Virus record (IMG/VR): IMGVR_UViG_3300027917_000021
Coordinates: 62,001 to 126,000 of that record
Source: a virus
Strand: one strand, 5' to 3'
DNA length: 64,000 nucleotides
Shown: positions 2,268 through 33,672 of the stretch, piece after piece
Position numbering within the stretch: the stretch's first letter is position 1
Layout: each line of letters begins with the position of its first letter
Notes under the pieces: model-generated
The model's input: only the letters and a program-made list of their open reading frames with translations
The model's database searches: none
What the model was told of the DNA's origin: nothing
Program-made: the position numbers and the translations under genes

Positions 2268-2688
2268 ACAAAGTAAAGCAGAAAGTAAAAAACAACAAAG
2301 ATTCATGGGCATGGTTCATGCTGTGCAAAAAGGAGAATTATCTCCTAAAGAAGTTGGACCAGCAGTTCGTAAAGCTGCCCGTGAAATGAAATATAAAGAT
2401 GCGAAAGACTTCGCAGAAACAAGCCACAAAGGATTACCAGAAAAAAAAGGGTCAGTACAAATGAAGTATTTTGAGAAAACAGCTTTCAAACCTATGGAGG
2501 CATTAAAAAACATATTTAGTAAAGGACCTGGTACAGCTATGGTAAAAGCAGCCCCAACAGCAGTTATGACACAAGCCCCAAAAGCCCAACAAAAAGTAAA
2601 ACGCTTGTTTGATGCAAGGGCTCTTGCCTCTGCAGGCATAGGCGGTGCTGCAGCAGGCTATGGTTTAGGATCAATTGGTAGCGAATAA
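2260..2688 (+). CDS. DUF3008-like domain joined to an MKYFEK-tagged glycine-rich segment
   Basis: Residues 1-65 match the small DUF3008 family (KKQQRFMGMVHAVQKG, then DAKDFAETSHKGLPEKK). Normally that would be a complete protein. Here the frame runs on without a stop into MKYFEKTAFKP at residue 68, the same octapeptide that begins the following genes, and then into a hydrophobic glycine/alanine-rich end (GIGGAAAGYGLGS). The ATG at 2461 could also start a separate 76-aa tagged protein, although only a weak AAGGG lies before it. Overlaps the HNH stop by 8 bases. It may be a fusion formed by loss of a stop codon, or a deliberate two-start gene. Confidence 0.7.
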   Translation: MYKQSKAESKKQQRFMGMVHAVQKGELSPKEVGPAVRKAAREMKYKDAKDFAETSHKGLPEKKGSVQMKYFEKTAFKPMEALKNIFSKGPGTAMVKAAPTAVMTQAPKAQQKVKRLFDARALASAGIGGAAAGYGLGSIGSE

Positions 2689-2822: not shown

Positions 2823-3239
2823 ATGAAATATTTTGAGAAATTAGCCAAAGAAGACCCGGGATATTTTGGAAAACAAATGGCTGCAACACGAGCATCGAGA
2901 ATTCATGATTCTGCGGCCGGGACATTAGTTGCAGATCCGAAATTGATTAAGAAAAGATTTGAAAAAGCAATTACATATGGTGTTCCAGCAGCTATAGGAG
3001 GTGCCGGAGTAGGAGCTTTAGTAGGAAAAATGAAGGGATATACAGGTTTCGGAGCAGCAGCTGGTGCTATATTAGCAGGTTATGGCGGTGAAGTAGCCGG
3101 CATACTGAAAGCAGACAAAGAATATTTAGCTAAAAAAGGAATTGAATTATCAGCATTTGGAAACGTCAAGAAAATGACTCCAGAGGCAAAAAAGAAATAT
3201 TTACACGAGAAATACCGCGGCGGCGGTTATAAAGGATAG
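2823..3239 (+). CDS. MKYFEKLA-tagged glycine-zipper protein (138 aa)
   Basis: Begins MKYFEKLAKEDPGYFG. The middle (residues 55-95) is a glycine/alanine-rich hydrophobic hairpin (AAIGGAGVGALVGKMKGY then GFGAAAGAILAGYGGE) of the glycine-zipper type, which can insert in or cross membranes. The C-terminus is basic. No enzyme motif is present. It sits in a run of five short paralogous-looking genes that share the N-terminal octapeptide and membrane-like core. Inference: internal virion or ejection protein, with the tag as packaging signal. Confidence 0.7.
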   Translation: MKYFEKLAKEDPGYFGKQMAATRASRIHDSAAGTLVADPKLIKKRFEKAITYGVPAAIGGAGVGALVGKMKGYTGFGAAAGAILAGYGGEVAGILKADKEYLAKKGIELSAFGNVKKMTPEAKKKYLHEKYRGGGYKG

Positions 3240-3249
3240 GAAAATAAAA

Positions 3250-3660
3250 ATGAAGTATTTTGAAAAAATAGCTATATCAAAAGAAGAAGAACAAACTTAC
3301 AAAAGAGCCCCATATAGGCTAGTGCCTTATGTAGGGCCATATTTAGGGACTCCAAAAGGTATGAGAAAAGAACATCCTTGGGTTTCGGCTCTATGGGGAC
3401 CCCCGGGGTCATTTGGTGCAAAATCAAAAGATACTGGAAAATCTTATTTAGAAGAAGCAGTTAAAACTGAAGCAGCAGTTCAAACTGGTATTGGTGCCGT
3501 AGCAGGCACTGTAGCAGGCGCTATGGCAGGAGCTAGAGGAAAACAATTAGCCAAAGTTATTGCTGCAGCTACAGGAATTGGTGCGGCCAGTGGGGCGGCC
3601 GGCGGTGCAATTGCTTACGGCGGTGGAAAATTATTTGCTGGGCAAAAGAAAAAAAAATAA
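3250..3660 (+). CDS. MKYFEKIA-tagged glycine-zipper protein (136 aa)
   Basis: Begins MKYFEKIAISKEEEQ. Residues 35-60 are aromatic and proline-rich. Residues 78-130 form a long Gly/Ala hydrophobic stretch (VAGTVAGAMAGARG, then GIGAASGAAGGAIAYGGG) ending in lysines. The start has AGGAAAATAAAA upstream. It has the same plan as the neighbours (tag, polar part, glycine zipper, basic end), but sequence similarity outside the tag is low. Confidence 0.7.
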   Translation: MKYFEKIAISKEEEQTYKRAPYRLVPYVGPYLGTPKGMRKEHPWVSALWGPPGSFGAKSKDTGKSYLEEAVKTEAAVQTGIGAVAGTVAGAMAGARGKQLAKVIAAATGIGAASGAAGGAIAYGGGKLFAGQKKKK

Positions 3661-3690
3661 TGAAATATAATGAAATATAATGAAATATAA
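3661..3690 (+). repeat. Three tandem copies of a 10-bp tag-start sequence
   Basis: TGAAATATAA occurs three times head to tail (3661-3670, 3671-3680, 3681-3690) and runs into TGAAATATTTTG, the true start of the next tagged gene. Each unit recreates ATGAAATAT, so three decoy starts precede the real one and all are closed by in-frame stops. This looks like replication slippage on the tag-coding DNA. Confidence 0.85.
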
Positions 3691-4394
3691 TGAAATATTT
3701 TGAAAAAAATGCTGCATCTGGTTCCATAGGTCTTTGGCCAGTTCCTAAAAATCTTGCAGGGGCGGCAATAGGAGCTACTATTTTTGGCCTTTCTGGATAT
3801 TCAGATGCAGATAAGGATAATAAATGGACATCTACAGCCAGTTCTGCATTATTAGGAGGAGTATTAGGCGCCGGAGCACAAGGTGCAGCAAGAGCAATGA
3901 AAAAATCTTTTAAGACGTCATTAAAAATGACAAAAAACATGTCAAAAAAAGACAATCCATTGGGCCAATATTTGTCAGAAGGCGTTGATCCTGCTGTAGA
4001 AAAAAGCAAGCGAGTGATGGACAAATTAAAACGTCAGGAAGACAAAATTAGGTCTCATAAAGCTAGCAAAAGTGGTTTTATGTATGAAGATGCAGTAAAA
4101 TATGTTAGGGAAAAGAAGGCTGCTACATTTAGAGTTTCTGAAAAAGATTTAACAAACAAAGAACTTCAACATGAGTTGAGAAGACCATATTTTGAAGGAT
4201 CTTTGCAGAATATGGCTTTTGGTGGAACATTTGGTGCAACCGCTTCTTTGCTTAATAAAGGAAAATCATACGGAAAAAATCTTCTAACTGGTGTTGCGGC
4301 TGGACTCATAGCAACTCCTATAGTTAATGCGTTAGATAAAAAAGACATATTAAAAGAAGTAGATCGCAGAAAGAAACACAAAGGTTATAGATAG
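3690..4394 (+). CDS. MKYFEKNA-tagged protein with two hydrophobic hairpins (234 aa)
   Basis: Begins MKYFEKNAASGS. Residues 20-35 and 50-70 are glycine-rich hydrophobic segments. Residues 70-165 are basic and helical. Residues 175-215 hold another hydrophobic stretch (FGGTFGATASLLNKG, then LLTGVAAGLIATPIV). The start is the last of four tandem ATGAAATAT units. It is the largest of the membrane-like tagged proteins and ends in an ATAGTGAA overlap with the next gene. Function unknown; inferred internal virion protein. Confidence 0.7.
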   Translation: MKYFEKNAASGSIGLWPVPKNLAGAAIGATIFGLSGYSDADKDNKWTSTASSALLGGVLGAGAQGAARAMKKSFKTSLKMTKNMSKKDNPLGQYLSEGVDPAVEKSKRVMDKLKRQEDKIRSHKASKSGFMYEDAVKYVREKKAATFRVSEKDLTNKELQHELRRPYFEGSLQNMAFGGTFGATASLLNKGKSYGKNLLTGVAAGLIATPIVNALDKKDILKEVDRRKKHKGYR

Positions 4395-4666
4395 TGAAAT
4401 ACTTTGAAAAAATATCAGAGTATAAAGAGTGGGATGATAGACACGCATTCACAGAAAATATACCGGGAGGTGCTGCTATCGGAGCTTTCGTTGGTCCAAT
4501 AGCTGCTAAATTACAAGCACAATTAATAAATCGTAAATTAAAAGCTATAGAAGAAATTAAACCATTTAAACCCGCCTTAATTAGAGCGAGCATTATTGGT
4601 GGTTTATTAGGGTCCATTGTTGGAGCTGGTAAATATGTCTATGAAAAAGAATACTACACAAAATAA
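4394..4666 (+). CDS. MKYFEKIS-tagged membrane-like protein (90 aa), GTG start
   Basis: The GTG start overlaps the previous stop (TAGTG). The GTG was chosen because it restores the octapeptide MKYFEKIS at the N-terminus. Two hydrophobic glycine-containing segments follow (GGAAIGAFVGPIAAKL, then ASIIGGLLGSIVGAG). It overlaps the next gene by 32 bases. The Ser in place of Ala at position 8 is also seen in the tagged gene at 8421. Confidence 0.7.
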   Translation: MKYFEKISEYKEWDDRHAFTENIPGGAAIGAFVGPIAAKLQAQLINRKLKAIEEIKPFKPALIRASIIGGLLGSIVGAGKYVYEKEYYTK

Positions 4667-5075
4667 ACCTAAATATTACCACTATGGTTATCGTTATATT
4701 AAACCACAGGATGAGCCTGAAGACTGGGATTATGCCATTCAGATGCATAAAAATCAAAATGGCACCCACTTTGATTTTAGATTAGCGAAGCCAGGACATG
4801 ATTATGCTTATTCCTGGGCATCACGCAAGCCACCTCTTAATATTACATCTCCTATTTTAACCCGCCGAACACATGATCATACTATAGAGCATATGGATTT
4901 TGAAGGTCCTCTTGAAACAGCAAGAGGCACGGGCACTGTGCAATTGCTTAAAAGGGGCAAAACTAAATTGCATTCTATAGATGATAAAGGTATTAAGTTT
5001 AAACTTGATACTGGTGAATTTTTACTTTTAACAAATGTTAAAGGTAAAAAATATATTCTAACAACTCCAACCTAA
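4635..5075 (+). CDS. Stand-alone LigD-type 3'-phosphoesterase domain protein
   Basis: Resembles the 3'-phosphoesterase (PE) domain of bacterial DNA ligase D, which trims 3'-phosphates and ribonucleotides from DNA ends before ligation. Visible signature: NGTHFDFRL near residues 40-48 (the H-x-D-x-R metal core), SWASRKPP, then HDHTIEHMDFEG (second histidine cluster) and GTGTVQLL. I prefer the ATG at 4635 to the earlier TTG because GGAG lies 9 bases upstream. A second PE domain, fused to a ligase, lies at 34904-36250. It has no MKYFEK tag. Metal-dependent end repair is an inference from the family. Confidence 0.75.
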   Translation: MSMKKNTTQNKPKYYHYGYRYIKPQDEPEDWDYAIQMHKNQNGTHFDFRLAKPGHDYAYSWASRKPPLNITSPILTRRTHDHTIEHMDFEGPLETARGTGTVQLLKRGKTKLHSIDDKGIKFKLDTGEFLLLTNVKGKKYILTTPT

Positions 5076-6682: not shown

Positions 6683-6878
6683 AATAAGATTAATTAATTC
6701 CAATGCTGTTCGAGAAGCAAAACCAGTGCCTGCTTTAGCAAACATACAAAATATGGTATCAAGAAAATTGGCTGAATTAAATATTTATACTACTAATTTA
6801 TCAATCACGATGACTGCAGGAAAATATCCTGATGTAAATATAGAAGGTGTTTTAAATACAGATTTATGGCCAAAATAG
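6675..6878 (+). CDS. Hypothetical protein (67 aa) between terminase genes
   Basis: Overlaps the previous stop by 8 bases and the terminase start by 13 bases, so translation is probably coupled. The product ends in a beta-like segment (LSITMTAGKYPDVNIEGVL). No motif recognised. Confidence 0.6.
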   Translation: MTKIRLINSNAVREAKPVPALANIQNMVSRKLAELNIYTTNLSITMTAGKYPDVNIEGVLNTDLWPK

Positions 6879-8419
6879 TTAAAATAGCCCCTAGCCAGTT
6901 TACAGAGCGATTTCTCTATCTAAATGGTAAACCGTTTTCATTTTCGAATTATGAATTCATGAAACCGATTTATGATTTAGATGCATCAGAAATTGTAATG
7001 AAATTTTCTCGTCAAACATCAAAGTCTACTACCATGGCGAATATTATGATGTCTAAAGCGGCCATGACACCGCATTTTAGACAATTGTATGTATCACCTT
7101 CAGTAGACCAAACAAAAATATTTTCTGGTGATCGTGTAGCACCGGTAATTGAATCAAGCCCTATTGTTAAAAAGCATTATGTGAATTCGAATGTATCACA
7201 GAATGTGTTTACAAAACGATTCCTTAACGGAAGTGTGCTATATCTCAGATATGCACAACAATCAGCTGACCGCCTCCGTGGTTTGTCAACCGATATAAAT
7301 TACTACGACGAAGCACAGGATTTGAATATGGAGATCATTCCTGTTGTTAATCAGTCTATGTCCAGGTCTTTATATAAAAAGACAGTTTATTCCGGAACTC
7401 CAAAAAGAACAAAAGGTACGTTAGCTGAACTTTGGTACCGCTCCACAATGTATGAATGGTTCTCTAAATGTGAGCATTGTGGTAAGTGGAATTACTTAGA
7501 TCAGAAAAACATCGGGTTGCATGGTGTCATATGCCGATACTGTGGGGAGCATCTTGACACTTCTAAAGGTCAATGGGTTAGTACTGGAGACAGAGATTCT
7601 AGAACCAAGGGTTTTAGGGTTAACCTATTGATGTTTGAGGCAGCACCCTGGGTTGATTGGCAAACTGACGTTATAGAGTACCGTAAGACTTGTCCAAGTG
7701 ATGCTATTTTTTATAATGAAGTTTTAGGTCTAGAATATGACGACGGTGTACAGCCAATCACCCTTGCTGATTTAAGAAGGTGTGCAACTGGCGGTCCGAT
7801 GCTGGAAGATCCAACCCAATTAGACTTATCAAGAGTACATACAACAATGGGGTTAGATTATGGGCCGGTAAACAGTAATAAATCTAAAACAGTTGCCTGT
7901 GTTATACAAAGAGATTCCGATAAAATAAAAGTTAAATATTTAAAAAGATATAAAGGCCATGAGGCTGATTATTCTTTTATTCATGGTGATATTCCACAGA
8001 TTTTTGCCAAATGGCATGCGGTGGTTATAGGGGCTGATGCTGGATTAGGAGATGGCCCTAATTCTGAAATACGGGCGCGTATTGGTATGCCTGAGCGATT
8101 GATTGCATTTAGGCATTCAGGATCACAAAGAGCAAAAGCAAAGTGGAATCCAAGTAGCAGTGAGTATACGCTTAATCGCAATATGGTCATGACAGACCTG
8201 TTCCGCAAGATTAAAAACAGACAAGTAGAGTTCCCTCGTTGGGAAGACTTTGAGCCTTTTGCCGACGATTTTATGAATATTGTAATCGAATATGATGATC
8301 GTTTAGGTACATATAAATATGTAAATACTGGCCCAGACGATGCACTACATTCAATTTTGTTTGGTGAGTTGGCACTTCAATTATTAACCGCGCGTGACGC
8401 AATGTTGATGGACTATTAA
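6866..8419 (+). CDS. terL: Terminase large subunit
   Basis: The DNA-packaging motor: N-terminal ATPase plus C-terminal RNase H-like nuclease, acting at the prohead portal. Residues 50-60 hold a non-standard Walker A (SRQTSKSTT). Walker B is NYYDEAQD near residue 150, followed by the coupling motif SGTPKR. Residues 190-225 contain a zinc-ribbon insert (CEHCGKW and CRYCGEH). The nuclease acidic residues are in GLDYGP near 330, GADAG near 390 and the TGPDDALHS motif near the end. 517 aa is normal for the family. It is followed one base later by a tagged gene. Confidence 0.9.
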   Translation: MAKIVKIAPSQFTERFLYLNGKPFSFSNYEFMKPIYDLDASEIVMKFSRQTSKSTTMANIMMSKAAMTPHFRQLYVSPSVDQTKIFSGDRVAPVIESSPIVKKHYVNSNVSQNVFTKRFLNGSVLYLRYAQQSADRLRGLSTDINYYDEAQDLNMEIIPVVNQSMSRSLYKKTVYSGTPKRTKGTLAELWYRSTMYEWFSKCEHCGKWNYLDQKNIGLHGVICRYCGEHLDTSKGQWVSTGDRDSRTKGFRVNLLMFEAAPWVDWQTDVIEYRKTCPSDAIFYNEVLGLEYDDGVQPITLADLRRCATGGPMLEDPTQLDLSRVHTTMGLDYGPVNSNKSKTVACVIQRDSDKIKVKYLKRYKGHEADYSFIHGDIPQIFAKWHAVVIGADAGLGDGPNSEIRARIGMPERLIAFRHSGSQRAKAKWNPSSSEYTLNRNMVMTDLFRKIKNRQVEFPRWEDFEPFADDFMNIVIEYDDRLGTYKYVNTGPDDALHSILFGELALQLLTARDAMLMDY

Positions 8420-8420
8420 T

Positions 8421-8834
8421 ATGAAATACTTTGAAAAATTGTCAGGTTTTGGTGATTTTACTAGAAAAATGTTTAGTTATCATGACCTAGATAAAATGTC
8501 GGAAGAAACAAAAATACCTAAAAAATATTTAGAATATCAGTATCATAATACCCGTGTTCCAAATTCTTTTTTGTATTCATATGACAATGCTAAAAAAGAT
8601 ATGACAAAACTTTATAATTTAAGAAAAACATATGAAACTACCAGAGCACCACTACTTAAACTTAAAGAAGGATCAAAAGAAGACAAAGCCTTTTTAAAAA
8701 AGAATAAAAAAACTTTAGATAGTCAATTATTGGCCTGGGCAACGTACGGTAAGGGATTGCAAGAAAAATATCATAAGATAAAAAATCAACCGTCAGGTAC
8801 AATAGATTACAAAAAAAATTTAAAGAATAAATGA
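8421..8834 (+). CDS. MKYFEKLS-tagged basic protein (137 aa)
   Basis: Begins MKYFEKLSGFGDFTRK. The rest is lysine- and tyrosine-rich, probably helical, with no glycine-zipper segment and no recognised motif. It ends in an ATGA overlap with the next tagged gene. The high positive charge would suit DNA binding inside a capsid, which is inference only. Confidence 0.65.
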   Translation: MKYFEKLSGFGDFTRKMFSYHDLDKMSEETKIPKKYLEYQYHNTRVPNSFLYSYDNAKKDMTKLYNLRKTYETTRAPLLKLKEGSKEDKAFLKKNKKTLDSQLLAWATYGKGLQEKYHKIKNQPSGTIDYKKNLKNK

Positions 8835-9241
8835 AATATTTTAAAAAGTTAGCTGCCGGGCCACCTGTTATTTTTAAAGTCCACCCAAAGAATCCAGAGG
8901 TAAAAGGAGCTTATATAATGCCTCGAAGAGAATGGGAAGTTTATCGTATTACACAAGATGAGGCTTTAGCAAATAAAGTTAGGAAAAAGGGGGCAATTCT
9001 TATAAATCCGGCAATAAAAGATCCAGAGCATATAAAGAAAATTAAACGTCATGAGTTGGTCCATTATTTACGACATAAAAACCGTCAGTGGTCGTCTATG
9101 AATTATGGTGCACTTCCCGGGGCACGTTTTGTTGAAGAAACGGCAGCATACGGGAAAGTACATGGAAGCAAAATAAAAGGCATGTTACATGCTATGAAAT
9201 CATCAAAACCTATAAGAGCAGTAGGAAAATTATTACATTGA
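8831..9241 (+). CDS. MKYFKKLA-tagged HExxH metallopeptidase-like protein (136 aa)
   Basis: Begins MKYFKKLAAGPP (E5 of the tag is K). Residues 75-82 carry HELVHYLRH, a zincin-type HExxH, and a downstream glutamate in FVEETAAYG could be the third zinc ligand. A paralogue with the same plan is at 10593-11081 (HELVHHLRA, IVEETAAHG). I read both as small zinc peptidases or inactive relatives. Because they carry the tag they may be packaged and delivered. Stop and start overlap the next gene (TTGA). Confidence 0.65.
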   Translation: MKYFKKLAAGPPVIFKVHPKNPEVKGAYIMPRREWEVYRITQDEALANKVRKKGAILINPAIKDPEHIKKIKRHELVHYLRHKNRQWSSMNYGALPGARFVEETAAYGKVHGSKIKGMLHAMKSSKPIRAVGKLLH

Positions 9242-10593
9242 GATACTTCGAAAAAAATGCCGATATTGTAAGAGAGTATAAAGATAGTCCAAAAGGATTG
9301 TTATATATTGCTCCAACTGGCTCTGGCAAAACTAAAAAAATATTAGAAGCTACTAGAAATGATCAGGCTGTTGCCATTACTCCAGCGTCAATAACAAAAA
9401 ATCTAGATAAAGAAGAACGTAAATTTTTTAATACACGTTCTTCAAGAAAATCTTTTACGTATGCTAAATTATCTCGTGGTGTTGATCTTCCGGAAAGAAA
9501 ACATTTGATATTGGACGAATCTCACAATATAAAAAATCCTAAGACAAAAACTTTTCAGAATATAGCATTACAAAGATGGAAGTTTGACAAAGCACTTTTA
9601 GCAACAGCAACGCCGATGTATAATGAACCATACGATATTGTATCCCAGGTGAATCTTGTTGCCAATCAAAAAGTTCTTCCAATGAATAAAAAAGATTTTT
9701 ACAAAAAATTTTATACGGAAGTTCAAAACGATCCTGGGCTAGTTGGACGTTTATTAGGAATTAAAGGTGCTAAAGAAAGAGTTTTAAAAGATCCAAAGCA
9801 TGTTCGCTCATTATTAGATAAGCATACTTATGTAGTCAGTGGTAATAAAGTAGAAAAACTTTTACCAAAGAAAGATGAAGAAATTGTTAAAGTTCCGATG
9901 TCAAAGAATCAGCAGGAACTTTATAAATACGTAAGTAAAAAATTGCCTTTTTATTTAAAATACAAAATACAAAGGAATCTTCCTCCAACTAAAACAGAAC
10001 AGAAAGACTTAAATAGATATTTGATGGGAGTAAGACAGGTTTCTAATACAACTCGTGGGTATAGTAGTACTCCTGAAAGTCCCAAATTTGAAAAAATGGT
10101 AGCTGACGCAAGAACAGAATTAAAGGCTGGAGGAAAAGTATTAATGTATTCAAACTTTAGAGAATCTGGAGTTGATGCATTATCAAAACGTTTAGAAAAC
10201 TTAAAAATTCCACATGGCAAGATCGTTGGAAGTATGACCAAAAAACAAAGGGCAGAAGAAGTATCAAAATATACAAGCAACAAAAATAAAGTATTACTAT
10301 ACAGTGGGGCCGGATCAGAAGGATTAAATTTACCAAAAACAACTTTGGTACAAATAGCAGAACCTTTTTGGAACAAATCAAGAATAGAACAAGCAGAAGC
10401 AAGAGGAATACGTAGAGGTGATGATCCCAAAAGAACTGTAAAAGTTAAAAAATACTTGTCAGTATTTCCGGAAGAGAAAAATATATTTGGTAAGAAGAAA
10501 CAAAAACGTGCTGTGGATGAGTATCTGGTAGAAATGTCAAATAGAAAAAACAAAGAAATAAAACAACTGCTTGAGGCAATAAAGGACGAGTAA
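9238..10593 (+). CDS. MRYFEKNA-tagged SNF2-like superfamily 2 helicase
   Basis: The TTG start was chosen because it gives the tag MRYFEKNA and overlaps the preceding stop. Helicase motifs occur in order: Walker A APTGSGKTKK (about 26-35), DEAH-type LDESHN (about 97), LLATATP (about 120), SGAGSEGLNLPKTT (about 358) and the arginine-finger motif EQAEARGIRRG (about 386). At 451 aa it is a compact SNF2 or RapA-type translocase without accessory domains. A tagged helicase is odd, because it implies packaging in the virion. Phage P1 DarB is a known injected helicase-containing antirestriction protein, which suggests an early protective role (inference). Confidence 0.8.
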   Translation: MRYFEKNADIVREYKDSPKGLLYIAPTGSGKTKKILEATRNDQAVAITPASITKNLDKEERKFFNTRSSRKSFTYAKLSRGVDLPERKHLILDESHNIKNPKTKTFQNIALQRWKFDKALLATATPMYNEPYDIVSQVNLVANQKVLPMNKKDFYKKFYTEVQNDPGLVGRLLGIKGAKERVLKDPKHVRSLLDKHTYVVSGNKVEKLLPKKDEEIVKVPMSKNQQELYKYVSKKLPFYLKYKIQRNLPPTKTEQKDLNRYLMGVRQVSNTTRGYSSTPESPKFEKMVADARTELKAGGKVLMYSNFRESGVDALSKRLENLKIPHGKIVGSMTKKQRAEEVSKYTSNKNKVLLYSGAGSEGLNLPKTTLVQIAEPFWNKSRIEQAEARGIRRGDDPKRTVKVKKYLSVFPEEKNIFGKKKQKRAVDEYLVEMSNRKNKEIKQLLEAIKDE

Positions 10594-11081
10594 TGAAATA
10601 TTTTGAAAAACAGGCAGCAGGGCCACACGTAGTGTATGATACTATACCAAAAGAATTTGGGAATCTAAGAGGTGGATATTTATCAGACAAGTATATTAAG
10701 TATGTCCCAAAAAAATGGCAGGAAAGTACAAAAAAGAAAAAAGGACTTGTCATGATAAGTAAACCTATTCATGATCAGTTAATAAACAAATATGAATCAG
10801 ATCTTATAATACAAGGACTGCCAAAGCCAGTCATTGAAAAAGAAACGAAAAGATACGGAAATAAAATTATACAAAATACAAAAAGACATGAATTAGTGCA
10901 TCATTTACGTGCACAAAAAGGCAAATGGTCTAGTATAGAGACTGGCAAAAACCCAATTAAAAGAATAGTAGAAGAAACTGCGGCACATGGGAGAGTGGCA
11001 GGAAATAAATGGAAAGGGTTTAAAGAAGCCACAGAACTACATGCTCCAAAAATATACAAAATTATAAAAAAATTAATATGA
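10593..11081 (+). CDS. MKYFEKQA-tagged HExxH metallopeptidase-like protein (162 aa)
   Basis: Begins MKYFEKQAAGPHVVYD. Carries HELVHHLRA near residue 97 and IVEETAAHG near 128, as in the paralogue at 8831-9241. The two also share AAGP after the tag and a matching K-W-S-S segment after the histidines. The gene overlaps its neighbours by 1-4 bases (GTAATGA and ATATGA). The two copies flank the helicase, which suggests duplication followed by insertion, or a functional trio. Confidence 0.65.
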   Translation: MKYFEKQAAGPHVVYDTIPKEFGNLRGGYLSDKYIKYVPKKWQESTKKKKGLVMISKPIHDQLINKYESDLIIQGLPKPVIEKETKRYGNKIIQNTKRHELVHHLRAQKGKWSSIETGKNPIKRIVEETAAHGRVAGNKWKGFKEATELHAPKIYKIIKKLI

Positions 11082-11491
11082 AATACTTTGAGAAGCAGGC
11101 AGACTTTTCCGAATGGTGGGATAACCGCAAAGAAGATTGGCAACAAGCAAAATACTTAGCTAAACATAAATATTATGTTTATAAAGGTGGCCGAGAACTT
11201 GGTGCAGATCCTATTACGTTGTTAAAACATGATTGGTCAAAATTAAAACCATCAATATGGGTGCCATATCGTGAATTTTTTTATGGTGGACATGGAAAAG
11301 ACCCTATGGTATTTCATGAGTTTCGAAGAGCTGTAGGAAAACATGTAGCCTCAGAAACACACCACGATTATAAATACAAAAACACAGGTAAACCCACAGC
11401 GGAAAATATAGCTGATTGGTGGAGCATTCAAAAAATACATCATCCGGAAACTCCGGATATTAAAACTTGGATTAGAAAAGGTGTAAAATAA
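11078..11491 (+). CDS. MKYFEKQA-tagged DUF5662-like protein (137 aa)
   Basis: Begins MKYFEKQADFSEWW. The central part (HKYYVYKGGRELG, then LLKHDWSKLKPSIWVPYREF) resembles the DUF5662 family of small phage and bacterial proteins, in which conserved H, D and W residues suggest an HD-like metal site. Residues HVASETHHDYKYK may complete it. This is the last gene of the second tagged cluster; a new promoter follows. Confidence 0.65.
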   Translation: MKYFEKQADFSEWWDNRKEDWQQAKYLAKHKYYVYKGGRELGADPITLLKHDWSKLKPSIWVPYREFFYGGHGKDPMVFHEFRRAVGKHVASETHHDYKYKNTGKPTAENIADWWSIQKIHHPETPDIKTWIRKGVK

Positions 11492-11557: not shown

Positions 11558-12517
11558 ATGACAAACGAGCAAATCGAATACTTCGGAAAAGAAGCGGCTA
11601 AAACATACCTTGAAGAAGGCACTGAATTAAATGAAACAATTACAAAAATAGCAGAAGAACACGCTCTTAACCGATATGAAATCGAAAGAATAGTAGAAGC
11701 GGCAAACACTAATACTTATTTATCTATGTTTAGTAATTTAGATGATAAATATATAGAATTTCCAGTAGCAGATGTTGAAAAAATAGCAGAAGCTTTATCG
11801 CCTATTGTGGAAGATGATCCGTATTATGATTATGATGAGCCGCCTGAAAAAGAATTAGAAGAAGTACAAATTTTTCCAGTTGAGGGTGCTGAGAAGACAT
11901 CCTCCGTTGCAGAAGAAAACAAGTTTTCTTCTGAAAATCTTCAATTCCGTCAGCGTGCTAAGTATGCAGAACAACAATTGATAGAAAGAATATCTCTAGC
12001 TGAGAATGCTTTTTCGGAGGAAACAGAGAATCTTTATCAAATGGTAAAACAAGCGGTGCTATCTGGTACCCGCTTCGGGCATATCAAAGCCGCGATGGAA
12101 CAGTACTCTCCTGGAAAATTTGTAGAAAAATTTGCTGAGTATACAAAAGAAAGATTAAAAAAAGAAGATCTTAGACTTGATCTTTCTGATTGTGAAGAAA
12201 AACTTGGTACAGTAAATAAAAATAATGAAATTATGAAGCAGCTTGATAAGATTGCAAATATTTATGGTGAAGCTGCTGTGTATAATGAAAAACTTGCAGC
12301 TTTTGGTTTAGATGTTGTCCGCCGCCTAGGTTCCGGTGCAATGAATTTTGGAAGAGGTGCTTTACGGTTCGCGGATACACACTCACGTACGGCATTATTT
12401 GGAACTGCAGCCGCAGGAGCTGTTGGTAGTGGTATAGCATATAAAGCAGGAAAAACAAAAGCTGAATATGAATTGTCTGCCATCCGAAACATACCACAAA
12501 AATATCAGAAGAGGTAA
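11558..12517 (+). CDS. Head/core protein with EKxA motifs and C-terminal membrane-like segment (319 aa)
   Basis: The N-terminus (MTNEQIEYFGKEAAKTY) looks like a divergent version of the MKYFEKxA tag. The protein is acidic and helical and contains several EKxA sequences (EKIAE, EKFAE, EKLAA). It ends in a glycine/alanine hydrophobic segment (TALFGTAAAGAVGSGIAY) and a basic tail. It lies two genes upstream of the prohead protease, in the place where scaffold or core proteins usually are. Inferred role: prohead core or internal head protein cut by the protease. No family recognised. Confidence 0.6.
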   Translation: MTNEQIEYFGKEAAKTYLEEGTELNETITKIAEEHALNRYEIERIVEAANTNTYLSMFSNLDDKYIEFPVADVEKIAEALSPIVEDDPYYDYDEPPEKELEEVQIFPVEGAEKTSSVAEENKFSSENLQFRQRAKYAEQQLIERISLAENAFSEETENLYQMVKQAVLSGTRFGHIKAAMEQYSPGKFVEKFAEYTKERLKKEDLRLDLSDCEEKLGTVNKNNEIMKQLDKIANIYGEAAVYNEKLAAFGLDVVRRLGSGAMNFGRGALRFADTHSRTALFGTAAAGAVGSGIAYKAGKTKAEYELSAIRNIPQKYQKR

Positions 12518-12520
12518 TGA

Positions 12521-13159
12521 ATGAAAAATGTGGAGCGAATAATCCGCCTTTATAAAGATGGAAAAATAGATGACACAACCATGGTTAAGATGGCAGTATT
12601 CAAAGAAAAGGTTGCAGAACTGATTAAAGAAAGTGGGCCCGGCGGTTTAACAAAAAATCAAGTATTGATGGCAGCTGCAATCTCTGCTGGTATTGGTTTG
12701 GGAAGTCAGGCTATTGAAAGTTTATCTAATTACTTTATAACAACGCGTGCAAAAAAACAATTAGATGAAACAACCGAGAAAATATTTGAAGATATTTATA
12801 ATTCACCGGAAGTAAAATCCTTTCCACGTGAAGTTGCGGAACAATATTTTAATACATTGAAACATTTTTCACCACATGTTGCCTCTGATCCATTAGCTGC
12901 AAAAACTTATTTATTGCAAATGCTCAAATGGTCAGATGAATATTCCGCTCCTATATCTACTATGACTGTAAGAGATTTAGCAGAAGTAGAAAATAAAGCT
13001 ATGGATGCTTTAAATAAAAGACCACTAGCAGGACCAGATATTGGTAAATTTACAGCACCAATTGTGGAGAGCATACAAAAAGCACCAAAAAACTTGTATA
13101 CGGAAATAAAAGAAACGCCACAGTCACTTCAAACAAGTATGTTTAACGAATATGATTAA
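12521..13159 (+). CDS. Head-module protein with hydrophobic segment (212 aa)
   Basis: The N-terminus is helical (MKNVERIIRLYKDGKID), followed by FKEKVAELIK, another EKxA site at about 29-32. A hydrophobic stretch (VLMAAAISAGIGLGSQ) lies near 50-65, and the remainder is helical. It overlaps the protease gene by 8 bases. Probably another core or internal head component; too short for a portal protein. Confidence 0.55.
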   Translation: MKNVERIIRLYKDGKIDDTTMVKMAVFKEKVAELIKESGPGGLTKNQVLMAAAISAGIGLGSQAIESLSNYFITTRAKKQLDETTEKIFEDIYNSPEVKSFPREVAEQYFNTLKHFSPHVASDPLAAKTYLLQMLKWSDEYSAPISTMTVRDLAEVENKAMDALNKRPLAGPDIGKFTAPIVESIQKAPKNLYTEIKETPQSLQTSMFNEYD

Positions 13160-14891
13160 ATATTTAGATTATTATCCAGGCGATAAAGGCGTTGAAATTT
13201 CTCTGATACATCCTGGTGTAATGGAGAAAACAGCCGAATATCATCCGGAACTACAAGAATTTTTACAAGTTTTAAAACCAGACCCAAAAAGATACTTTCT
13301 TTTAGTCAATGCATTAGGTGCAGGCGAATATTATGGCAGTAATCGCAATGGTGATTATTTCCCTGAACCTGCTTTGGTTGAATATCATAAGACCTTTGAA
13401 ACACTTGGAAAAGTATTTAGACATCACAAAAATAAACCTCAATTAGGCCATCGTGTTTATGGTGAAATTCTTTATTCTCATTATAATCCTAAAATGCACA
13501 GAGTAGAATTGGTTATTGGGCTTGATGTTGGTGCAGCACCAGATCTAAAAGAAAGAATTGATCGTGGTGAATTTCCACCAATTTCTATGGGATCGAAAGT
13601 TCCTTATGATGAATGTTCTATTTGTGGTAATAAAGCACCAAGAATACAGGATTATTGTGAACACGCAAAAACAATGATGAATCATGTTATGCCTGATGGT
13701 CGTAAAGTTTATGTTATTAATCGCAAACCTAAGTTTTTTGATATCAGCTTCGTTCATGTGCCGGCCGATCGTACAGCATATACTTTACGAAAAGTTGCTG
13801 AATACGTAGAAGAGGAACCATCGGCTATTAAAACTGCAAAAGCATTAAAACAGGCTGGCATTAAAGAATCAACCATCGTAAAAATCATAGATGGTCAAGT
13901 TGACTATGCCGGGCCAGATCCAAGCCGTCTTATTGTAGAATCACAGCCTAATATGTCAAAAAGGCTGATTAATGATTTGGCACATTCAGCCCCATTAAAT
14001 GAAGTACTAAGTACTCTCGTAGCTACAAGAGTTATGCCTAAAAAAGCAGAATTTCAAAGATTAATATTAACTGCAAAAGGCCAAGAAAAATTAGCAGAAG
14101 AACTTGAGAGAGAAAAAGTTTGTTTTATTATACATGATGATATTGAACCGGTTATTCCGAATGATGTGAATATTCATCAGTTCAACCAAAAAACAGCAGA
14201 AGTATTACGTTCTTATCCAGAATATTTTGAAAGAGCGCCATTAACTAAACCGGTTGTCATGGCCCGGATACTTGAGAAATATGCATTTTTAGATACTGGC
14301 CATCAAAAAGGCAGTCCAATGGAACAAGCAGGAGTAATCCCTCCTTTAAAAGATATGCCTGACGACAAACAAAATACTCATGGAGAAGAACAGCCTATTA
14401 TATCCCCTATAAAAAACCCACTAATACCTCTTACAGCAATAGGCGGTTTATATTTAGGTGTTTCAAAACTTATGAATTCTTTTGGTGCTGCAGAAGGACT
14501 AAAAGCATTATTGGCAAATAATCCGTGGTTGCTTCCTATACTTATAGGAGGAGCAACTATTGGTAGCATGGAAATGCAAAAGCGATTATTTGAAAAAACT
14601 GCTTCCGGAGTTGGATTTTTAGGAAGTATGTTATTAAGTGTTCCGGCCACTTATCTTTATGCCGGTTTTCAGGAAAACAAAGTAAGGCAAGGCAGACCAA
14701 TAGGCTCTTATTCTAACTTTGTTAGAAAGAATCCTCTATTGGCAAGCATTGGCCATGGTTTTCTTGGCAGTAAGACAACAAAATTGTTGTCTAAAGTAGG
14801 AGAAGCAAAAGGCAAACTTTTTGATGCTTCTCTTCAATTAGATGAACAAAAATTTAATAATATTTATAATATTGTTATACATGGTAATTAG
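13152..14891 (+). CDS. Prohead maturation protease with long C-terminal extension (579 aa)
   Basis: Residues 50-230 resemble phage prohead core proteases: SNRNGDYFPE, a histidine-rich HHKNKPQLGH (candidate catalytic His), PPISMGSKVPYDECSICG (candidate nucleophile Ser followed by a Cys-rich insert) and FFDISFVHVPADRTAY. Such proteases process scaffold and capsid proteins inside the prohead. The C-terminal 350 residues are not needed for that fold. They include EKTA, EKLA, EKYA and a second EKTA, plus a hydrophobic region (WLLPILIGGATIG). The extension may be a scaffold part cut from the enzyme by self-processing. Confidence 0.75.
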   Translation: MIKYLDYYPGDKGVEISLIHPGVMEKTAEYHPELQEFLQVLKPDPKRYFLLVNALGAGEYYGSNRNGDYFPEPALVEYHKTFETLGKVFRHHKNKPQLGHRVYGEILYSHYNPKMHRVELVIGLDVGAAPDLKERIDRGEFPPISMGSKVPYDECSICGNKAPRIQDYCEHAKTMMNHVMPDGRKVYVINRKPKFFDISFVHVPADRTAYTLRKVAEYVEEEPSAIKTAKALKQAGIKESTIVKIIDGQVDYAGPDPSRLIVESQPNMSKRLINDLAHSAPLNEVLSTLVATRVMPKKAEFQRLILTAKGQEKLAEELEREKVCFIIHDDIEPVIPNDVNIHQFNQKTAEVLRSYPEYFERAPLTKPVVMARILEKYAFLDTGHQKGSPMEQAGVIPPLKDMPDDKQNTHGEEQPIISPIKNPLIPLTAIGGLYLGVSKLMNSFGAAEGLKALLANNPWLLPILIGGATIGSMEMQKRLFEKTASGVGFLGSMLLSVPATYLYAGFQENKVRQGRPIGSYSNFVRKNPLLASIGHGFLGSKTTKLLSKVGEAKGKLFDASLQLDEQKFNNIYNIVIHGN

Positions 14892-14964: not shown

Positions 14965-15546
14965 ATGGCTAAAGAAGGATTTAACCTTGAATCTTTTCTA
15001 AAAACTTTAGAAGATGACAAGGAAAAAACAGCTGAAGAAAAAGTAGAAGAACCAGTAGAAGAGCCTACTGAAGAACCTACTGAAGAACCTACTGAAGAAG
15101 AACCAGCAGAAGAAACAAAAACTGCTGAAAATCTCGAAAGAGAAAAAGTAGCTGAGCTGGTGGAAGAAGGCCAAATCATGGCTCGCGCTTTCCACGAAGA
15201 ATTAACAAAACTTGCTGTTGGTGATGGACCTTATACACCAAATCCAGCAGCTATAAAAGAGCCTAACGAAGTTAGCCACATGAGTGTTGGTGACATTAAA
15301 ATGGACCAAACAGCCAAAGTGGAAGCTCTTTTAAATCAAATTCAAGCTGCTGTACGTAGTGGTGGCGGAGACATGACATTTACGTTTAATCCTGGTGGGT
15401 CACAACCGGTAGTACCAGATGAAACCGTACTTCCTGCAGATGCTGCATCAGCACAAAAATCTCAAGCAGCCGCTGCAAGCATGAATAAAGCTGCAGCCGC
15501 AAAAATCATTGATAATCTTTACAAGAAAGTATTTGGAGAAGAATAA
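14965..15546 (+). CDS. Acidic scaffold-like protein (193 aa) with EEPT repeats
   Basis: Very acidic N-terminal half with tandem EEPT/EEPA repeats near residues 30-50, flanked by EKTAEE (about 21) and REKVAEL (about 55). The segment LVEEGQIMARAFHEEL near 62-77 recurs in the next two proteins. The second half is alanine/serine-rich and low-complexity. Charge, repeats and position ahead of the capsid gene fit a scaffold or prohead core protein. An ATAATGG overlap joins it to the next gene. Confidence 0.65.
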   Translation: MAKEGFNLESFLKTLEDDKEKTAEEKVEEPVEEPTEEPTEEPTEEEPAEETKTAENLEREKVAELVEEGQIMARAFHEELTKLAVGDGPYTPNPAAIKEPNEVSHMSVGDIKMDQTAKVEALLNQIQAAVRSGGGDMTFTFNPGGSQPVVPDETVLPADAASAQKSQAAAASMNKAAAAKIIDNLYKKVFGEE

Positions 15547-15839
15547 TGGGACTTTTAGAAACTTACGAAGCCATGCAAAAAGAGGCAGCGGTTGCGGAAG
15601 TTGAAGCCCAACGTCGCGAAATGTTGACGAAATATGCTTCTGCCGCTGAAGAACTTCTTGAGAATGAATATGGCGATGATTATAATGCTGATGATGTAGA
15701 ACTATTAGCTGAGAAATTAATTGAAGCTGATGTAGAGGCTATGGAACAGCAAGAAAAAGTTGCTGAATATGAAGAAGCCGGCAAAATAATGGCACAAGCT
15801 TTTATTAAAGAGCTTAAAGAAAAAAAATCCGAAAAATAA
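15546..15839 (+). CDS. Prohead core-like protein (97 aa)
   Basis: Helical and acidic. LTKYASAAEELLENEYGDDY and DDVELLAEKLIEADVEA align with the first part of the next protein (LEKYAARAENLLSQKFGKNY, DVEKLAEALIRLDVKR), so the two are paralogues. It ends in YEEAGKIMAQAFIKEL, the motif shared with the preceding scaffold-like protein. Inferred head core component. Confidence 0.6.
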   Translation: MGLLETYEAMQKEAAVAEVEAQRREMLTKYASAAEELLENEYGDDYNADDVELLAEKLIEADVEAMEQQEKVAEYEEAGKIMAQAFIKELKEKKSEK

Positions 15840-16292
15840 ATGAACATACAAAGAATACAGTTTCTGGAAAAATATGCTGCCCGAGCTGAAAATCTTTTGT
15901 CACAAAAATTCGGAAAAAATTATACGCCAGAAGATGTAGAGAAACTTGCTGAAGCATTGATACGCCTGGACGTTAAGCGGGCAGCGAATATCGATCGTGT
16001 TGAAGAATTAGTCAAACAGGCACAATATACAGCAAACGCTTTTGTAAAAGAAATAAACAAAGAATTGGGAGAAGATGCTTTTGCTAAATTAGCGAAAGCA
16101 CCTTTTCTTGATGCTTTAAAGCTATTAGTAAAAGGTAAAGGATCCGAGTTCAGCCAAAAACTTATAGGAGCCTTAAAAAATACCGGCCAAAGAACGATGA
16201 AATTTGTAAAAACAGATCCTTATTTGGCTGCCGGATTTGCCGGAGCTGGTGGTGCAACTGCTCTTACTGGCCATGCTTTATTATCGGATTAA
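15840..16292 (+). CDS. Prohead core-like protein with C-terminal glycine-rich segment (150 aa)
   Basis: Residues 1-80 are paralogous to the whole of the preceding protein. The protein then continues with a basic linker and a hydrophobic end (LAAGFAGAGGATALTGHALL) of the glycine-zipper kind found in the MKYFEK proteins. This links the head-core family with the tagged family by architecture. No spacing to the previous gene. Confidence 0.6.
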   Translation: MNIQRIQFLEKYAARAENLLSQKFGKNYTPEDVEKLAEALIRLDVKRAANIDRVEELVKQAQYTANAFVKEINKELGEDAFAKLAKAPFLDALKLLVKGKGSEFSQKLIGALKNTGQRTMKFVKTDPYLAAGFAGAGGATALTGHALLSD

Positions 16293-16298
16293 ACGCGA

Positions 16299-16778
16299 AT
16301 GATTAGTTTGAGAAACTTGTTAAAAGACATAGAAGCATCTGAACAAGAGAAGCATGCCGAACAAAGTCCGGAAATTACTATTGACGATTTACGTAATACA
16401 GCAAAATCTCTTGAAAAATTAGCTTCGCCTGATCGTGAGATTGATGTGATAGCTAAATTAGCAGTTCTTATGGATATGGGTCTTACCAAAGAAGCAGCCG
16501 ATATAGTTACAAAGGCTAAAAAATATCTTTGGAAAGTAAAAGATGCAAACAGGGCTGCAAAAATAATGGAAGAAGCGGGAAATATAGAGAAGGAAACAAA
16601 GAGAATCCAAGAAGGTAAAACTCTTGCTAAATATAAATGGCCTGCTATTGCAACCGCTGGTACAGTAGGTGGTTTGTATTTAGGTTCACAAATATCTGAA
16701 AAAAACAAAAAAGATGAACTTAAAAACGTTGCTCGTAAATACTTCTCTCTTGGCCGACAATCCGCAGGAGGAGCATAA
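16299..16778 (+). CDS. Head-module protein with EKxA sites and hydrophobic segment (159 aa)
   Basis: Helical. EKHAEQ near residue 18 and LEKLASP near 43 are further EKxA-type sites. The C-terminal third holds a hydrophobic segment (AIATAGTVGGLYLGSQI) followed by a basic end. It overlaps the next start (ATAATG). Function unknown; the same general architecture as the other head-core proteins. Confidence 0.55.
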   Translation: MISLRNLLKDIEASEQEKHAEQSPEITIDDLRNTAKSLEKLASPDREIDVIAKLAVLMDMGLTKEAADIVTKAKKYLWKVKDANRAAKIMEEAGNIEKETKRIQEGKTLAKYKWPAIATAGTVGGLYLGSQISEKNKKDELKNVARKYFSLGRQSAGGA

Positions 16779-17122
16779 TGAGTTTTGAAAAAACAGCTCA
16801 AGAACACTATAATTTTTTACTAGAAGAATATGAAAAATCACACGGTGCAGAAGAACGTGAGAAGCTCGCAATGACCGTAGTTACCAAAATGGTAGAGCGC
16901 GCAGATCTCACAGAGCCCGGTGAGGTTTTAGAAAAGTTGGCAGAACTTCGCCAACAAACAACAGAGGACTTAAAAATTCTCGAAAAAGCGGTCGAGTTGG
17001 GTAGAATTCCTGGGGGTGAGGGACCCACAAAAACAGCGTCAGCTTCGCTGGGTTCCCTAGCGGAGATCCCAAGCGGAGATGACCAGGATAATCTAACAAA
17101 ATTTCTACTCGAAGATTATTAA
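16778..17122 (+). CDS. Small head-module protein beginning MSFEKTA (114 aa)
   Basis: Begins MSFEKTAQEHYN, a shortened relative of the tag. Additional EKxA-type sites are REKLAMT and LEKLAEL. It is acidic and helical, with a glycine/proline-rich linker near 85-95. It lies just before the decoration and capsid genes. The density of EKxA motifs (three in 114 residues) is the highest in the window. Confidence 0.55.
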   Translation: MSFEKTAQEHYNFLLEEYEKSHGAEEREKLAMTVVTKMVERADLTEPGEVLEKLAELRQQTTEDLKILEKAVELGRIPGGEGPTKTASASLGSLAEIPSGDDQDNLTKFLLEDY

Positions 17123-17621: not shown

Positions 17622-18542
17622 ATGGCTGATGTTCCTGCTAATGTAATTAACGAATTGTTCGTTTCTAAGCTGGATCAACCTGAAGGTCGCGAAAAGCTGG
17701 CTGCTGAAGGCTCTGCCTTCATTCGTACAAAGCTGCGTGAAGTATCCTTTGCACGTAAAATCATCAACCCAGTGTATGTGACCAAAGCTGATCTACAAAG
17801 ATCCGTACAACATGACGGTTTGGTAAAAATCGTCGATATTGAGCCTGATTCTGCAGCAATGGCTATCAACTTCCGTGGTGGAGCTGATACCCGTTACGTA
17901 GAAGGCGAACGCTACGAGATTCCTTTCTTCATGATTACTTCTGAAGATTTTCAGAAAACTGAAGAGGAACTGTTAGCGTATGAAATGCCGATTACAGACG
18001 TTATCGAAAGAAACTCTGTAAAAGACATCCAAGAAATTGAAGATAGTGCATTCATTACTCGTGTCAACGCAGCAATTGCAGTGTCTGGAAAATCAAATGT
18101 TGCTGTAACTACTTCTGGTGGTTATATTGACAAAACAGTTTTTGCGACATTGTTTAACCTGCTTGAAGCCGGTGGTGGCACAGTAGATCGTCTAAAAACA
18201 GAAGTTGTTCTTATGAACAACCAAGATTATAATGATCTATTACTATGGGAAGCCAACAGTGTAGGCGACCAAGTTGGTGCAGAAATCACTGTCAATGGTT
18301 ATACGTATGCAACTCTTTTTGGTAAGAGACTTATTGTAACCAATAAAGCAGATTTAGTTCCTGCAAAAACTATTTATGCCTTTGCAGCACAAGAGTTCTT
18401 AGGAAACTTTTTTATCCTGAACGATACACGGTTCTGGATTGACAAGAAAAAGAACCTGGTAACATGGAGTGCATATGAAAGCATTGGTATGGGTATCGGA
18501 AATATCCGTGCAGTTGCATCTGTTACTTGGACAAGCGCGTAA
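17622..18542 (+). CDS. Major capsid protein, HK97-type
   Basis: 306 aa, strong ribosome site (AAAGGAGA), followed by a terminator, and more G+C-balanced codon choice than its neighbours, all as expected for a highly expressed coat protein. A helical N-terminus of about 30 residues contains REKLAAEG (23-30), a likely cleavage site. The rest alternates helices and strands, with FRGGADTRYVEGERYEIPFF as a possible E-loop, and ends in a beta segment (GNIRAVASVTWTSA). The HK97 fold is inferred from size, context and layout. Confidence 0.8.
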   Translation: MADVPANVINELFVSKLDQPEGREKLAAEGSAFIRTKLREVSFARKIINPVYVTKADLQRSVQHDGLVKIVDIEPDSAAMAINFRGGADTRYVEGERYEIPFFMITSEDFQKTEEELLAYEMPITDVIERNSVKDIQEIEDSAFITRVNAAIAVSGKSNVAVTTSGGYIDKTVFATLFNLLEAGGGTVDRLKTEVVLMNNQDYNDLLLWEANSVGDQVGAEITVNGYTYATLFGKRLIVTNKADLVPAKTIYAFAAQEFLGNFFILNDTRFWIDKKKNLVTWSAYESIGMGIGNIRAVASVTWTSA

Positions 18543-33273: not shown

Positions 33274-33672
33274 ATGAAATATTTTGAAAAAAATGCAGAT
33301 ATACAATATGCCTTGAAAGGAATGGTCAAGGGATTTAAAGCTGGAACAATGGATTTAGCTACCGCAGCAGATAGAATTAAGAGGTTAGCTGAAAGAAAAA
33401 AGAATTTAATGCAATATATAGACTTAAATCCAAATGTATTTGATCAAAATCCTGCCATGGTAGATAAAGTACATCGTTATTCTAAAATGCTTGTTGGAAG
33501 TAATATGTTATATAATAAAAGGCAGGTTGACCTACTTAAGTTAGGTGCAGCACCAGTGCATCCTATGCAAGGCACACTGCTGAATGTGCAAACAAGAGAA
33601 TCACAAACAAAATACAACTCTAAAGTTTTAGGTAAAAAAAGAGCTGACATTTTAGTACCACTATGGCGTTAA
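33274..33672 (+). CDS. MKYFEKNA-tagged protein in the fibre region (132 aa)
   Basis: Begins MKYFEKNADIQYALKG, the only tagged gene far from the two tagged clusters. The product is basic and helical, with no glycine zipper. Overlaps the diguanylate cyclase start by 10 bases, so the two are translated together. Its presence here shows that the tag moves as an independent module and is not a result of local tandem duplication only. Confidence 0.7.
   Translation: MKYFEKNADIQYALKGMVKGFKAGTMDLATAADRIKRLAERKKNLMQYIDLNPNVFDQNPAMVDKVHRYSKMLVGSNMLYNKRQVDLLKLGAAPVHPMQGTLLNVQTRESQTKYNSKVLGKKRADILVPLWR

Follow-up and report, generated by a model that had tools for sequence, protein, structure and literature searches.

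Eleven reading frames in a 64,000-nucleotide stretch of phage DNA (the window; bases 62001-126000 of the 155,895-base IMG/VR record IMGVR_UViG_3300027917_000021) carry the same short N-terminal tag, M[KR]YF[EK]Kx[AS]. The end of this tag, F-x-K-x-A, is the same motif (hydrophobic-x-K-x-A, written PHI-x-K-x-A below) that is enriched in the prohead-core proteins of this phage. We consider that the tag, in the general form M[KR]YFxKx[AS], is probably a capsid-targeting and processing signal like the T4 CTS, and that it would load cargo for injection, including a putative helicase/zincin polyvalent module. The gene order in the window is terminase, then the helicase and HExxH genes, then a head module made up of two core genes, the protease at 13152-14891, five small core genes, and the capsid protein at 17622-18542. 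The features are as follows.

2461-2688, plus strand: tag at an internal ATG of ORF 2260-2688, after a DUF3008 domain.
2823-3239, plus strand: glycine-zipper-rich protein, tagged, 138 aa.
3250-3660, plus strand: glycine-zipper-rich protein, tagged, 136 aa.
3690-4394, plus strand: glycine-zipper-rich protein, tagged, 234 aa.
4394-4666, plus strand: glycine-zipper-rich protein, tagged, 90 aa, GTG start.
6866-8419, plus strand: terminase large subunit (context).
8421-8834, plus strand: tagged protein of no assigned type, 137 aa.
8831-9241, plus strand: HExxH (zincin-like) protein 1, tagged, 136 aa.
9238-10593, plus strand: SNF2-type helicase/translocase, tagged, 451 aa, TTG start; Pfam, PHROG, and structure matches.
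10593-11081, plus strand: HExxH (zincin-like) protein 2, tagged, 162 aa.
11078-11491, plus strand: DUF5662 protein, tagged, 137 aa; domain match 4.5e-10.
11558-12517, plus strand: head-core protein with 6 PHI-x-K-x-A motifs.
12521-13159, plus strand: head-core protein with 1 PHI-x-K-x-A motif.
13152-14891, plus strand: prohead maturation protease, gp21/assemblin-like, 579 aa.
14965-17122, plus strand: five small head-core (scaffold-like) proteins with 13 PHI-x-K-x-A motifs in total.
17622-18542, plus strand: major capsid protein, K-x-A just before the N-arm.
33274-33672, plus strand: tagged protein in the tail-side region, 132 aa; its homologue in G001 is also tagged.

The tags start at 2461, 2823, 3250, 3690, 4394, 8421, 8831, 9238, 10593, 11078, and 33274, all inside the window, and most adjoin head genes. 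A degenerate DNA pattern of the tag, run against the entire record, matched 11 times on the forward strand and 0 times on the reverse strand, and the reversed control pattern gave 0 matches. With a wider pattern and one mismatch allowed, background appears (16 forward and 6 reverse matches, compared to 2 and 6 for the control); ten exact matches of this pattern are the same tagged genes, and 9238 enters with one mismatch. We collected 45 tagged starts from six phage records, namely 11 from the window's own record, 7 from G002, 6 from G001, 1 from G003, 2 from G004, and 18 from G005, the last mostly MKYFTK. All pattern matches of the own record (11/11) and of G002 (7/7) were used, as were 6/7 in G001, where the match at 3109 opens no listed ORF; two more G002 matches of a looser pattern, of the MKFF and MKFFN types, were left out. 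All 45 tags have Y3, F4, and K6, but these residues were required by the search patterns. Position 8, which was free in the pattern, is Ala or Ser in 11/11 tags of the own record, 6/6 in G001, and 6/7 in G002. Across the 45 tags, the Ala at position 8 is encoded by all four of its codons and Tyr by TAT (28 tags) or TAC (17 tags); this use of many synonymous codons indicates that the tag is selected as protein. Chance and a DNA repeat were both rejected as the source of the tag, given the 0 matches of the reversed control and the varying codons. All 11 tagged window proteins are basic, with a median net charge of +9.3 per 100 aa compared to -3.6 and 0.0 for untagged proteins, a property to be expected of proteins packaged together with DNA.

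A blind scan with the tag DNA matched 9 contigs, of which 5 have tagged genes, and 4 of these 5 encode the protease described below. The matches in L068, L072, L074, and L075 are not N-terminal tags, and these contigs were dropped as unrelated: the match is the C-terminus of an ORF in L068, L072, and L075 and starts no listed ORF in L074. The three ORFs, which we take to be T4-type ssDNA-binding proteins, end in MKYFEKLAAS, with the tag at the wrong end, and we regard this as coincidence. G001 (L066, 169 kb) has seven tag matches, which share one strand, and its homologue of 33274 is tagged; a search of G001 detected no protease, capsid, or helicase of this type, and it is perhaps an incomplete contig. 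Related lineages have tags of their own, M[DN]KAxx[VI][FY]xK in L114, L117, L118, and L128 and MNKY[LI]EKxA in L138/L139. A literature search did not find the tag system in print, and the only paper in the library searched that contains the tag letters is unrelated.

The region of the glycine-zipper genes shows some further traces. A decayed cargo gene lies at 2689-2822, where a tag-like IKYFIKNTS-stop has lost its start codon and is followed, in another frame, by the glycine-zipper stretch GLGTGLAIAGYGLSGG. At 3656-3690, directly before the tagged gene 3690, ATGAAATATA occurs three times in tandem, as if the tag start had slipped in replication. The DUF3008 domain of 2260-2688 reads in frame into the tag, and in the relative's counterpart (L015:1092-1631) the tag is doubled, MKYFEKNPIKYFEKDA; the tag behind the DUF3008 domain is either an internal start or a fusion. 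An untagged ORF with a LigD-type 3'-phosphoesterase domain (4617-5075; PF13298, 9.5e-10) adjoins this cargo block, and similar ORFs, recognized by eye, lie near head/tail genes in L015, L098, L101, L104, L114, and L134.

We further analyzed the motif at the end of the tag. In the eight core proteins of the window, [FYLIVM]xKxA was found 25 times, with 5.2 expected, and 0/500 shuffles reached 25; elsewhere in the window, tail-side genes had 3 (6.4 expected) and minus-strand genes had 12 (9.6 expected). Core controls with R for K, or with G/E for A, were at or below expectation, and a control with one extra residue between the first two motif positions was raised (14 vs 5.2). Among 16 spacings compared with local shuffles, the 1,1 spacing was enriched about 4.6-fold in the core, followed by 2,1 at 2.6-fold. 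Protease profile A3 fetched 33 related loci, several of them near-copies, and the motif was over-represented in all 33 (15-42 observed vs 3.6-7.7 expected). The same held for two cultured phages, Arash (36 vs 5.7) and Vibrio D181 (33 vs 4.2), and the enrichment was weaker in Bacillus phage G (9 vs 2.7). As a control, in T4 gp67/68/22 the known gp21 site [LI]xE was found 24 times vs 10.2 expected (0/1000), and PHI-x-K-x-A 2 times vs 1.6. Since the control recovers gp21's site, such enrichment marks a prohead-protease site in a known case. Within residues 1-8 of the 45 tags [LI]xE is absent, and in D181 it is at expectation.

The motif also occurs at other N termini. Across 19 distinct loci, it was found in 18/139 upstream genes (4.8 expected), at least 2 of which look like core genes, and in 6/62 downstream genes (1.1 expected). 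In Arash (about 100 kb of 181 kb), 5/37 CDS labelled 'structural' and 1/73 labelled 'hypothetical' carry it; four of the five structural ones are core genes, so this does not establish a cargo tag in Arash. K-x-A stands just before the capsid N-arm in 36/38 capsid proteins listed, near-copies included, and is missing from this place in the capsid proteins of phage G and Myrna; in the capsid protein of the window, K-x-A is present without the rest of PHI-x-K-x-A. By contrast with the core, the bodies of the 45 tagged proteins (after residue 9) contain the motif less often than expected (9 vs 20.1). Three of these nine are the second copy of a doubled tag and two fusion junctions, and masking them gave 6 vs 19.7. 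Because other spacings are depleted too (0.45 for 2,1 and 0.50 for 2,3), we regard the body depletion as supportive, not decisive.

The protease at 13152-14891 looks like a member of the gp21 type, as judged from homologue matches and from a predicted structure of low overall confidence (mean pLDDT 56.9, poor outside about residues 30-220). Its homologues match PHROG_18299, head maturation protease, in 13/13 cases. For the better-predicted part of the model (roughly residues 40-217), T4 gp21 (5jbl) was the top structure at Z 9.7, followed by herpesvirus assemblins at Z 8.2 and below; Foldseek alone ranked T4 gp21 second, at E 0.11. No relative of the protease was found in genome_contigs. We note that the protease of L101 (2569-6684) has two in-frame intein-like insertions, ending HN/S and HN/C, that the terminase of L069 (6467-9511) is also interrupted in frame by intein-like sequence, and that oversized protease or terminase ORFs are present in L132-L137 and L141.

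The cargo of most interest to the original prediction was a tagged SNF2-like helicase between two tagged HExxH paralogues, and this description holds. Read from its sequence, 9238-10593 is a complete compact SNF2-type ATPase with both domains and the motor motifs intact. It matches Pfam SNF2-rel_dom and Helicase_C (1.1e-15 each) and PHROG_62 DNA helicase (1.4e-39), and its best solved-structure relatives are SNF2/Rad54. Three aligned homologues keep Walker A GSGKT, DES[HQ], [TS]ATPMYNEP, GAG[SA]EGLNL, and QA[EA][AS]RGIRRG. A Pfam scan of the 451-aa protein gave only SNF2-rel, Helicase_C, and weaker helicase matches, with no methylase domain. In G005 the helicase is a separate gene, 54% identical and with an MKYFTK tag. 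Homologues in Arash (29% identical) and L104 (46% identical) lack the tag, and the annotation of Arash does not label its copy as structural, which argues against a fixed virion role of the helicase.

Both flanking ORFs, 8831-9241 and 10593-11081, contain HELVH and a downstream EETAA, in keeping with the predicted likeness around the active site. Among four aligned copies, two from the window and two from the nearest relative, the others share 32-42% identity with the first. The prediction also held up on conservation, as 7/7 copies, from four phages, share the H, E, and H, an R that comes after them, and the E-E further downstream. The HExxH proteins are zincin-like, putative peptidases, an assignment supported by the motif and weakly by the fold, because the zincin structures matched by the model (pLDDT 72.5; 3e11, 8sln, and 1oz9 at Z 5.5-5.1) were tied with unrelated chains. 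These zincin matches include PprI and YbeY, 1oz9 presumably being a YbeY-type protein. Foldseek gave no match to the model with an E of 0.001 or below, a search of the phages collection with HExxH protein 2 retrieved nothing, the HExxH alignment retrieved only the known relative from viral_contigs, and Pfam and PHROG scans of the HExxH copies returned nothing reliable. A tagged protein adjoining the tagged helicase of G005 (L100:5022-5681) has GHEMDE in place of HExxH and is possibly a degenerate or variant peptidase-like partner.

In relatives, tagged genes are found fused. The nearest relative, L015, whose terminase is 84% identical to that of the window, encodes the first HExxH protein and the helicase in a single 615-aa ORF (L015:9512-11359) with one intact N-terminal tag. 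The fusion junction reads KKFIKRAG where the window helicase tag is LRYFEKNAD, and MKYFEKQADFSEWW of the window's 11078 protein is replaced by VKSLEKTADFAEWW in L015:12098-12682; in both of these internal tag relics PHI-x-K-x-A persists and Tyr3 is lost. In L128, one 663-aa ORF (L128:1774-3765) combines two HExxH modules and a nucleotidyltransferase-like module with a weak Pol-beta match. This last module is a separate gene in L117, where residue 1 aligns exactly with the module start (52% identity over 318 columns). Polypeptides with at least two effector domains are found in L015 and L128 but not in the window, where the ORFs are single-domain. A survey of polyvalent proteins (Iyer et al. 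2017; PMC5512222) describes MPTase as their commonest domain, reports its fusion to SWI2/SNF2, and presents the proteins as thought to act on entry with the DNA. The HExxH and SNF2 genes of the window are this polyvalent-protein combination, split into separately tagged genes.

The reading that we favor can be set out as follows. During prohead assembly, the cargo would be docked into the core by its N-terminal tag; cleavage by the gp21-type protease at PHI-x-K-x-A, most simply after the A/S, would then follow in the core proteins, the tags, and the propeptide of the capsid protein, and the basic cargo would stay inside with the DNA and leave the head together with it at infection. The helicase and the two zincin-like proteins would form a polyvalent module (SWI2/SNF2 plus MPTase) delivered as separate proteins: the translocase would travel along the incoming DNA, the zincins would cut either host proteins, bound to DNA or involved in defence, or their own partners, and together they may help the genome through its first minutes. 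This CTS-like reading draws on the 11 tags, the motif common to the core, the T4 control, the body depletion, and the protease model, and also on the blind tag scan that found protease contigs, the one-tag fusion with its relics, and the basic charge. Against it stand the untagged helicases of Arash and L104, the tags of G001 without a detectable protease or capsid, the incomplete capsid motif (phage G and Myrna lacking K-x-A), the weak zincin fold match, and the absence from the helicase of an anti-restriction partner such as a methylase. On sequence grounds, the presumed packaging signal of the original prediction does behave like one, with its prohead-core motif, an adjoining gp21-like protease, and one intact N-terminal tag per polypeptide.

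The best reading is a head-address system that works like the T4 CTS but with a different site specificity. As in T4, where IPI-III and Alt carry the CTS (PMC5694885, PMC7411985), a short N-terminal sequence is placed on several internal proteins, a gp21-type protease is encoded with the core genes, and its site, a putative one here, also studs the core proteins. The site differs, being [LI]xE in T4 and probably PHI-x-K-x-A here, and the likeness to the CTS is drawn from its description; four T4 proteins are named in PMC7411985 (IPI, IPII, IPIII, and Alt), whereas the tagged genes number 11 in the window and 18 in the parts of G005 that were read. The ejection proteins of SPN3US/phiKZ likewise have N-terminal propeptides cut by a gp21-like protease, and the first 15 residues of gp53 and gp54 are identical (PMC5694885). 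However, as described there, cutting is after AxE, most propeptides exceed 100 residues, and that account presents no tag common to an unrelated cargo set. Polyvalent proteins have the same types of domain (zincin MPTase, SWI2/SNF2, and Pol-beta NTase) and are thought to be injected (PMC5512222). Domains are fused in this way in L015 (615 aa) and L128 (663 aa), whereas in the window each domain is its own gene with its own address tag.

What the helicase and HExxH proteins do is a separate matter, and a counter-defence role is only plausible. The original prediction saw the three as an injected defence-suppression trio. That the helicase and an HExxH protein belong together is borne out by the tagged fusion in L015; a set of three is not, as 11 proteins are tagged, several of them glycine-zipper proteins with no evident defence link. 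A specific, DarB-like counter-restriction set is, in our judgment, somewhat unlikely. P1 DarB does offer a virion-carried helicase-type protein that protects DNA (PMC9024508, PMC5512222), carried by an N-terminal signal of which the first 30 residues suffice for a reporter (PMC9024508), and SWI2/SNF2 and MPTase recur in polyvalent proteins (PMC5512222). The parallel with DarB proved weak, however. Both are SNF2-type helicases with an N-terminal signal, a presumed one in the window protein, but DarB is known from virions (PMC9024508) and the window protein from its gene, and DarB is a 250-kDa protein with an adenine methylase domain, whereas the window helicase has 451 aa and no methylase; the missing methylase led us to reject its membership of the DarB type. 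The distant homologues in Arash and L104 are untagged, and the Dar proteins, as presented in PMC9024508, have no common N-terminal consensus, in contrast to the one common to 11 proteins here. DNA delivery, or the clearing of DNA-bound host proteins, is as consistent with the data as counter-restriction.

The motif might instead be a docking element only, a scaffold-binding helix that stays on the mature cargo protein. The tag is predicted as a helix, with low confidence, in the HExxH model, and core proteins could need many binding elements. We nevertheless find this quite unlikely: the motif is depleted in cargo bodies, it is kept at fusion junctions where the docking residue Tyr3 is lost, K-x-A recurs at the capsid N-arm, and in the T4 control a protease site is enriched in the same way. 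Also improbable is a role before infection, with the helicase acting in packaging or head maturation and the zincins as head processing enzymes. In several phages the helicase gene, with or without a tag, adjoins the terminase gene or head genes, and self-processing is offered as one role of the MPTase domain (PMC5512222); yet neither the helicase nor HExxH is constant in the head module, as the motifs of both are absent from the stretches of G003 and G004 that were read, and those of G005 contain the helicase with no HExxH found. An address inside the infected cell (phage compartment or phage DNA), unrelated to the virion, would suit the basic charge of the tagged proteins and the DNA motor among them, but is very unlikely given that the motif is common to prohead-core proteins, that tagged genes adjoin head genes, and that the tag DNA led to contigs with this head protease.

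The CTS-like reading can be extended, tentatively and with some doubt on our part, to a tag of two parts, an address (M-K-Y) and a cut site (F-x-K-x-A), in which each lineage has its own address (MKYFxKxA, MNKY[LI]EKxA, or M[DN]KAxx[VI][FY]xKxA), cargo is recruited by gain of the tag, and polyvalent proteins form by fusion of neighbouring tagged genes. In such a fusion the inner address would decay and the inner cut site stay, and the head protease may recut the parts.

Knowledge of what large phages inject usually comes from the virion proteomics of cultured isolates. In the present case, a single motif that can be read from sequence marks both the core of the prohead and a set of unrelated proteins. 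It provides a testable cleavage rule for a head module that is also present in cultured Arash and Vibrio D181 and, more weakly, in Bacillus phage G, and in MKYF-tagged phages the tag yields a list of candidate injected proteins. The fusion and splitting of tagged genes also suggests a concrete way in which multi-domain polyvalent proteins may form and come apart. If address and cut site are indeed separate parts of the tag, the injected proteome of uncultured phages would be readable from the genome, and some polyvalent proteins would be polyproteins.
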